Below, piece after piece: positions 45,060 to 54,476 of a stretch of DNA of 64,000 nucleotides (its first letter is position 1; every line of letters starts with the position of its first letter). The translations under genes and the position numbers were made by a program. Below the pieces are notes generated by a model. That model ran no database searches. It was not told the origin of the DNA and saw only the letters and a list, made by a program, of their open reading frames with translations. The stretch is from Candidatus Nanoarchaeia archaeon (GTDB taxonomy: Archaea > Nanobdellota > Nanobdellia > CSSed11-243R1), in contig JAQTNH010000001.1 in NCBI GenBank assembly GCA_028713895.1, positions 822,610 to 886,609 on the forward strand. Reading direction: 5' to 3'.

Positions 45060-45096
45060 TTTCCGCCTTCTTTTGCGAAAAGAAGGTAGGCTGCCA
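45060..45096. repeat. Hairpin element copy 2
   Basis: TTTCCGCC TTCTTTT GCG AAAAGAA GGTAGGCTGCCA; same flanks as 42023 copy, different self-complementary stem. Confidence 0.7.
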
Positions 45097-45110: not shown

Positions 45111-45213
45111 TGGGGGTACCCAGATTTGAACTGGGGTCATAAGGTCCCAAACCTCACATACTAAGGCCAAGCTATACTATACCCTTGTGCCATAATGTTG
45201 TCATTGTGGTCCC
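45111..45213 (-). tRNA. tRNA-Pro(UGG) with 27-nt intron in acceptor stem (exons 45211-45213 and 45111-45183; intron 45184-45210)
   Basis: GGG|[intron]|GGTA TA GTAT..GTAT G TGAGG TTTGGGA CCTTA TGAC CCCAG TTCAAAT CTGGG TACCCCC A; splicing restores GGGGGTA/TACCCCC. Confidence 0.85.
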
Positions 45214-45314
45214 ACAGTAAGATGGCTTGGTTAAACTAAACAAAATCGAATGTTCTTTTAAACGTTTCTGTCCAGACAGTTAATAATTTATACCCTGCAA
45301 ATGTAAAAGTGATT

Positions 45315-54222: not shown

Positions 54223-54302
54223 TTATCTCGCCATTTTTTTATGTTATTTTCCATCAGTGTTTTTTCTTCCACTAATGCTTCTTTTTCTAAAAGAAGGATT
54301 AA

Positions 54303-54386
54303 TGGGGAGTAAGGGATTCGAACCCTCGCAGAGACTAACTCACACGGTCCTTAGCCGTGCCCGTTTGACCGCTCCGGCAACTCCCC
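54303..54386 (-). tRNA. tRNA-Leu, type II; apparent anticodon AAG
   Basis: GGGGAGT/ACTCCCC acceptor, CACGG-CTAAGGA-CCGTG anticodon arm, long variable arm, GAGGG-TTCGAAT-CCCTT T arm, A73. Confidence 0.9.
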
Positions 54387-54476
54387 AAAAGCTTTTTCTT
54401 TTCCAAAGAAAAACCTTGGAAAAAGAAATGCCATTGATAGAATAAAGAACGAAGAATTATTTTATAAGCTTACCGT

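Follow-up and report, generated by a model that had tools for sequence, protein, structure and literature searches.

The tRNA-Pro(UGG) locus of the window

The contiguous tRNA-Pro(TGG) gene called by Rfam and ARAGORN at 45111-45186 on the minus strand would begin at AAGGGTATAG, with A·C mismatches in the first two acceptor pairs, 1:72 and 2:71 (AA facing C72 and C71) and an Rfam score of 40.6 bits. All coordinates given without a contig are positions in the window, that is, the whole analyzed stretch of 64,000 nucleotides, which corresponds to positions 822610-886609 of contig C1. The genome (hereafter G000) is a draft of 1.07 Mb in 13 contigs, estimated to be 89.5% complete and known from one assembly. 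The initial annotation proposed that a 27-nt intron with a bulge-helix-bulge (BHB) motif lies between tRNA positions 3 and 4. We found that its coordinates and sequence were exact, and that the contiguous acceptor is indeed unable to pair fully, as that annotation had stated. The features of the locus are as follows.

45249-45264, minus strand: TATA-box-like element (CGTTTAAAAG) with flank; located at -51 relative to exon 1, with a score of 10.0 against a PWM built from other G000 tRNA genes
45214-45230, minus strand: 5' leader; its last six bases (TACTGT) form one strand of the outer helix and contribute three bases to the central helix
45211-45213, minus strand: exon 1, tRNA positions 1-3 (GGG); G1 pairs within the central helix, and the next two bases, G2 and G3, lie in the 5' bulge
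45184-45210, minus strand: putative 27-nt BHB intron at tRNA positions 3/4 (ACCACAATGACAACATTATGGCACAAG); BHB scan with central helix 4/4, outer helix 3, inner helix 3 contiguous and 7/8 overall
45180-45219, minus strand: whole BHB motif (outer helix, central helix, two 3-nt bulges, intron hairpin), from sequence and BHB scan
45111-45183, minus strand: exon 2, tRNA-Pro(UGG) positions 4-73, from Rfam and ARAGORN (contiguous form) and orthologues with 91% identity

On the minus strand, the motif reads TAC TGTG GG^A CCACAATG ACAA CATTATGG CACA AG^G GTA, in which TAC pairs with GTA in the outer helix and TGTG with CACA in the central helix, leaving GG^A and AG^G as the bulges. The two 3-nt bulges are located on opposite strands and flank a 4-bp helix, as in archaeal BHB tRNA introns, and the polarity is that of the archaeal EndA type, with the bulge 3' of the central helix in each strand. 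The outer and central helices and both bulges agree with the geometry originally described, but the inner helix (CCACAATG/CATTATGG) is imperfect, consisting of three pairs, a C·A mismatch and four pairs (7/8 formed). Part of the splicing signal was also expected to lie in the 5' leader, and leader bases -6 to -1 are in fact found in the outer and central helices. Complementarity between the leader (CCAAGC) and the D-arm was considered as a designed outer helix and rejected: in the leader-to-exon duplex test it is weak evidence (P of 0.03-0.06 for tRNA-Pro and about 0.01 for tRNA-Trp, described below), and tRNA-Arg(TCT) and tRNA-Leu(TAA) show equally strong complementarity without such an intron.

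Predicted splicing product and probability of chance occurrence

Cutting after the second base of each bulge, the standard rule, would join GGG to GGTA; the resulting GGGGGTA forms a perfect 7-bp acceptor stem with TACCCCC, as had been proposed, and ARAGORN gives a normal cloverleaf for the spliced tRNA-Pro(UGG). The computed fold energy is -28.0 kcal/mol for the spliced form versus -20.7 kcal/mol for the contiguous form. Free folding of the precursor did not always recover the exact BHB. As a null model, the tRNA-Pro body was kept and the upstream 110 nt were replaced by random (Markov) or genomic stretches. A BHB of the same quality that at the same time completed the acceptor appeared in 0.18% of the trials (1.8e-3), and in 0.010-0.015% (approximately 1e-4) when at least 2 nt of 5' exon were required. 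Among the 40 T-arm-bearing tRNA genes of G000, the contiguous acceptor is paired 7/7 in 37 and 6/7 in one; only tRNA-Pro(UGG) and tRNA-Trp lack a contiguous acceptor, and these two are also the only ones that yield a BHB solution. The TATA spacing of tRNA-Pro would be -51 with the intron versus -78 in the contiguous form, and the boxes of other G000 tRNA genes lie at -57 to -94; as proof of the intron this spacing was discarded as a weak discriminator, several tRNA genes of this genome having long leaders.

A second predicted intron at positions 3/4, in tRNA-Trp(CCA)

The BHB scan of intron-bearing tRNA genes revealed the same 3/4 arrangement in tRNA-Trp(CCA) (C1:272821-273024, minus strand; L074/L172), a gene found once only in G000 and called correctly by neither Rfam nor ARAGORN. 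Its motif is acacg CAAG GG^C TAAGTTG...CAACTTA CTTG AT^G CGATAG, with a CAAG/CTTG central helix and a 7-bp inner helix. In both genes the insertion lies between nucleotides 3 and 4 (k=3), with lengths of 27 nt in tRNA-Pro and 31 nt in tRNA-Trp, and the register is common to both: three leader bases together with G1 build the central helix, and the first intron base joins G2 and G3 in the 5' bulge. The null probability for the tRNA-Trp BHB is 0.8e-3 to 4.6e-3. The gene has two further introns, one a 30-nt BHB intron adjoining position 26 with a weak outer helix, and the other at 37/38, placed by exon pairing without a resolved BHB; all three cuts would produce a perfect tRNA-Trp(CCA) cloverleaf. 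The 37/38 intron bears C/D-box-like stretches (CTGA, CGATGAGG).

Common descent of the two 3/4 introns was considered and set aside, because no sequence similarity is visible between them. Since a second, sequence-unrelated 3/4 BHB intron is present in tRNA-Trp of the same genome, coincidence is very unlikely, and an acceptor-stem BHB intron is the best reading of the tRNA-Pro locus, as the initial annotation had it. On the basis of these sequence features, we estimate a probability of about 0.92 that the gene encodes a functional tRNA-Pro(UGG) and that a 27-nt archaeal BHB intron divides its acceptor stem at positions 3/4.

Alternative explanations

One alternative is that the true or ancestral sequence was AAGGGGGTATAG, that two G residues were lost from this run, either by a real deletion or by an assembly error, and that the upstream BHB is coincidental. 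Two relatives of the same family, G002 and G004, do have AAGGGGGAT directly 5' of the tRNA body, and AAGGGTA differs from AAGGGGGTA by just two G residues. However, the null probability of a BHB that completes the acceptor is 1e-4 to 2e-3, and a coincidence of this kind would have to be assumed again for tRNA-Trp, where the contiguous 5' side, GATGCGA, is no contraction of GGGGCGA; furthermore, the BHB register is identical in the two genes. We therefore consider contraction of the G run improbable.

Slightly less probable still is that tRNA-Pro(UGG) is a pseudogene that has lost its 5' end and is no longer used. The two mismatches in the contiguous acceptor and the Rfam score, which is below those of most G000 tRNAs, would fit such a gene. 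However, the gene is the sole tRNA-Pro(UGG) found in 1.07 Mb, and the CCA codons are common: they occur at 9.8 per 1000, a normal usage, in open frames of at least 250 codons. A second intact tRNA-Pro(UGG) had been named at the outset as the observation that would speak against a spliced gene; a search of all G000 contigs (Rfam with E up to 10, ARAGORN and T-arm scan) found none. The other proline genes have the anticodons CGG (C1:800206, plus strand) and GGG (C1:79835, minus strand), the latter with a 37/38 intron. Neither loss of structure nor a redundant intact copy, as expected of a pseudogene, was found: every stem other than the acceptor is intact, and in the acceptor itself the pairs 6:67 and 7:66 are changed on both sides compared with G002 and G004 (from A-U and U-A to U-A and A-U), thus the acceptor stem is under selection. 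In addition, tRNA-Trp, also found once, is disrupted in the same way.

Thg1-like repair of tRNA 5' mismatches is known, and several G000 tRNA genes have hairpin inserts in their leaders, but the possibility that the contiguous transcript is used after a Thg1-like 3'-5' polymerase exchanges A1 and A2 for G opposite C72 and C71, the hairpin being a leader element, is very remote, because no Thg1 family protein was found in G000 (best E of 0.5, below the cut-off), tRNA-Trp and the BHB would be left unexplained, and the tRNA-Pro hairpin differs from the CTTTCTTT/AAAGAAAG type of the other leaders.

Proposed splicing pathway and splicing machinery

If the 3/4 intron is spliced, the precursor would start upstream of the leader, and, judging from the sequence match, a strict BHB would be formed by the last six bases of the leader with exon 1, the intron and the first bases of exon 2. 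EndA would cut each bulge behind its second base, and GGG would be joined to GGTA by RtcB, giving the computed GGGGGTA strand opposite TACCCCC. Splicing would have to come before the RNase P cut between -1 and +1, because leader bases -6 to -1 and G1 build the outer and central helices, and a cut at +1 would destroy the BHB. The tRNA-Pro motif shares with the canonical archaeal 37/38 introns a strict BHB, in which a 4-bp helix separates two 3-nt bulges, and like them it would be a substrate of EndA and RtcB. In contrast to these introns, its BHB lies partly in the 5' leader, so that the order relative to RNase P matters, and the tRNA fold is unable to form before splicing. The split tRNAs of Nanoarchaeum and Caldivirga (PMC4390854, PMC4033280) likewise have a disrupted tRNA gene with a BHB at the exon boundary; in tRNA-Pro, however, both exons belong to one transcript, and the 3-nt 5' exon lies in cis at a distance of 27 nt.

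The required factors are encoded in G000: RNase P RNA (100 bits), the ligase RtcB (PF01139 at C1:767688-769047) and one EndA gene. The initial annotation expected a heteromeric or broad-specificity EndA. This expectation was not supported, as the single gene encodes a 181-aa product (with PF01974 and PF02778 matches) that aligns end to end with the M. jannaschii EndA chain 1a79 without a long insertion and with the Tyr/His/Lys active-site triad kept (DFRVYPRG, DTEHA and HSVRKTLL in the translation aligned with 1a79). Neither a second subunit nor a long three-unit gene, features of the (alpha beta)2 enzyme and of the epsilon2 enzyme with CSL or ASL, was found, and there is no further PF01974 match in G000 at E <= 1. 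The relatives G001 and G003 also have a single EndA gene each, of 177 aa. From its sequence, G000 EndA resembles the homotetrameric M. jannaschii enzyme, although there may be a divergent second subunit. The alpha4 and alpha2 types of EndA cut only the canonical BHB, and unusual introns go with the (alpha beta)2 or epsilon2 types (PMC4033280, PMC12397907). There is no conflict with a short single EndA, because the tRNA-Pro and tRNA-Trp 3/4 introns have the strict motif; it is their predicted position that is unusual, not the motif.

Predicted introns in the rtcB gene

The rtcB gene of G000 (C1:767688-769194, minus strand) has two short insertions, each with a BHB at its borders whose central helix is fully paired (4/4). 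Removal of the first (23 nt) restores LPDGHEGYGFPIGGVA and that of the other (29 nt) restores SPGGIGYDINCGVRL; the second intron is located directly 5' of the DINCG active-site motif. The restored RtcB is 80% identical to the uninterrupted RtcB of G001 over 481 residues, and the alignment is gapless across both junctions. Such insertions were found in rtcB only among 445 comparable genes, in a screen that is blind to in-frame insertions. Furthermore, BHB introns of 28-32 nt are present in rtcB of genomes from four other families of the class (G007, L263; G035, L260; G038, L261; G052, L262), at or near the same tyrosine codon, in the HxGYGFPIGG site. Taking the introns out brings back the conserved protein exactly. 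In four other members of the class, G013, G020, G026 and G030, rtcB contains long in-frame inserts (open frames of 946-1475 aa), which are probably inteins; those of G013 and G020 are near profile position 47-72.

Introns of the BHB type in pre-mRNA are known from crenarchaeal cbf5 (PMC2738675). The present ones differ in that they are in rtcB, which encodes the ligase for the last step of BHB splicing, and belong to another archaeal lineage; we found no earlier report of rtcB introns in the open-access literature. In several families of the class, the introns split the conserved core immediately ahead of the active-site motif, and therefore RtcB would need prior RtcB. We give even odds to the idea that the EndA of this lineage, which appears to be homotetrameric, takes strict BHB introns out of any position, 3/4 included, and that the same machinery also splices rtcB mRNA, which would place tRNA splicing under a self-dependent feedback. 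That two rtcB BHB introns restore a gapless protein supports the 3/4 intron of tRNA-Pro.

Other tRNA genes of the genome

Non-canonical introns were also observed in the D-arm of tRNA-Gln(CTG), tRNA-Gln(TTG), tRNA-Ala(CGC), a second tRNA-Gly(TCC) and a likely initiator tRNA, the genes being located on contig C1 as follows.

236861-236966, minus strand: tRNA gene with a non-canonical D-arm intron
653181-653285, minus strand: tRNA gene with a non-canonical D-arm intron
539159-539277, minus strand: tRNA gene with a non-canonical D-arm intron
691657-691818, plus strand: tRNA gene with a non-canonical D-arm intron
492165-492328, plus strand: tRNA gene with a non-canonical D-arm intron

Several of these genes carry a further intron in the anticodon loop. 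The presence of other non-canonical BHB introns in G000 lends support to the tRNA-Pro 3/4 intron.

Three separate observations concern the tRNA genes more generally. The window contains a tRNA-Leu gene with the anticodon AAG (54302-54387, minus strand), which has no intron and a normal fold; A34 is unusual for an archaeon. An orphan 3' part of tRNA-Ala (GGGAGGCTGAGGGTTCGAATCCCTCCTAGTCCA; C1:809107-809135, minus strand) lies directly 3' of another tRNA and is preceded by a TATA-like stretch; it is either a remnant or the 3' half of a split tRNA. Finally, a small hairpin element (CTTTCTTTT..AAAAGAAAG), in many copies with GAAAGAAA after it as a third arm, recurs in 37/38 introns, tRNA leaders and intergenic DNA, for example at about 45066-45086 of the window and in introns or leaders of tRNA-Val(TAC), tRNA-Thr(TGT), tRNA-Leu(AAG) and tRNA-Gly(GCC); it has 24 matches in G000 and 36 in G001, versus one in an order-3 Markov control.

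Distribution and evolution of the predicted 3/4 introns

The exon 2 body of tRNA-Pro(UGG) is 91% identical to the intron-less orthologues in G002 and G004, whose acceptors are contiguous (GGGGGAT/ATCCCCC). Conservation of the 3/4 intron among relatives was rejected, as the acceptor is contiguous in 27 of 29 Pro-type loci (24 by script and three more by eye), the remaining two being L048 and L058. In G001, no acceptor-stem intron was found in about 22 tRNA genes, and the tRNA-Trp gene (L174) has a contiguous acceptor together with a T-arm intron adjoining TTCAAAT. The contiguous acceptors of the relatives indicate that the 3/4 introns are recent, lineage-specific gains in the lineage of G000. 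G001 and G003, which belong to family f1 and are each 91% complete, have only 13 Rfam tRNA matches each with E up to 0.01; the tRNA genes of this family, within which the 3/4 introns arose, are heavily interrupted.

Introns at position 3/4 have been reported in Thermoproteales (Sugahara et al. 2008, as cited in PMC4090602), and acceptor-stem introns at 3/4 are thus already known as a kind. Like the present ones, the Thermoproteales introns are archaeal tRNA introns located in the acceptor stem, and the genomes that carry them often have several introns in a single tRNA gene. The introns are too short for a homology comparison between the two groups. They differ in that the crenarchaeal enzyme is of the (alpha beta)2 type, whereas G000 is of the DPANN type, with a single short EndA and with intron-less orthologues in the same family. 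The lineage is given only as DPANN-type, since the L37Ae relatives found were all distant and carried the labels DPANN, Woesearchaeota or Diapherotrites. What is new is the lineage, the single short EndA gene, the two independent cases in one genome and the register shared with the leader.

With our results, the range of acceptor-stem tRNA introns would grow beyond Thermoproteales to include a DPANN-type lineage, in which two tRNAs of one genome are hit at position 3/4. These introns stand beside a short single EndA, whereas in reviews heteromeric or epsilon2 enzymes are linked with unusual tRNA introns. They also illustrate that standard tRNA annotation can overlook genes or misplace their ends, as in the case of tRNA-Trp. 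The tRNA-Pro and tRNA-Trp genes would be clean substrates for asking whether splicing must precede RNase P processing, and the introns in rtcB may matter more than the tRNA-Pro intron itself.
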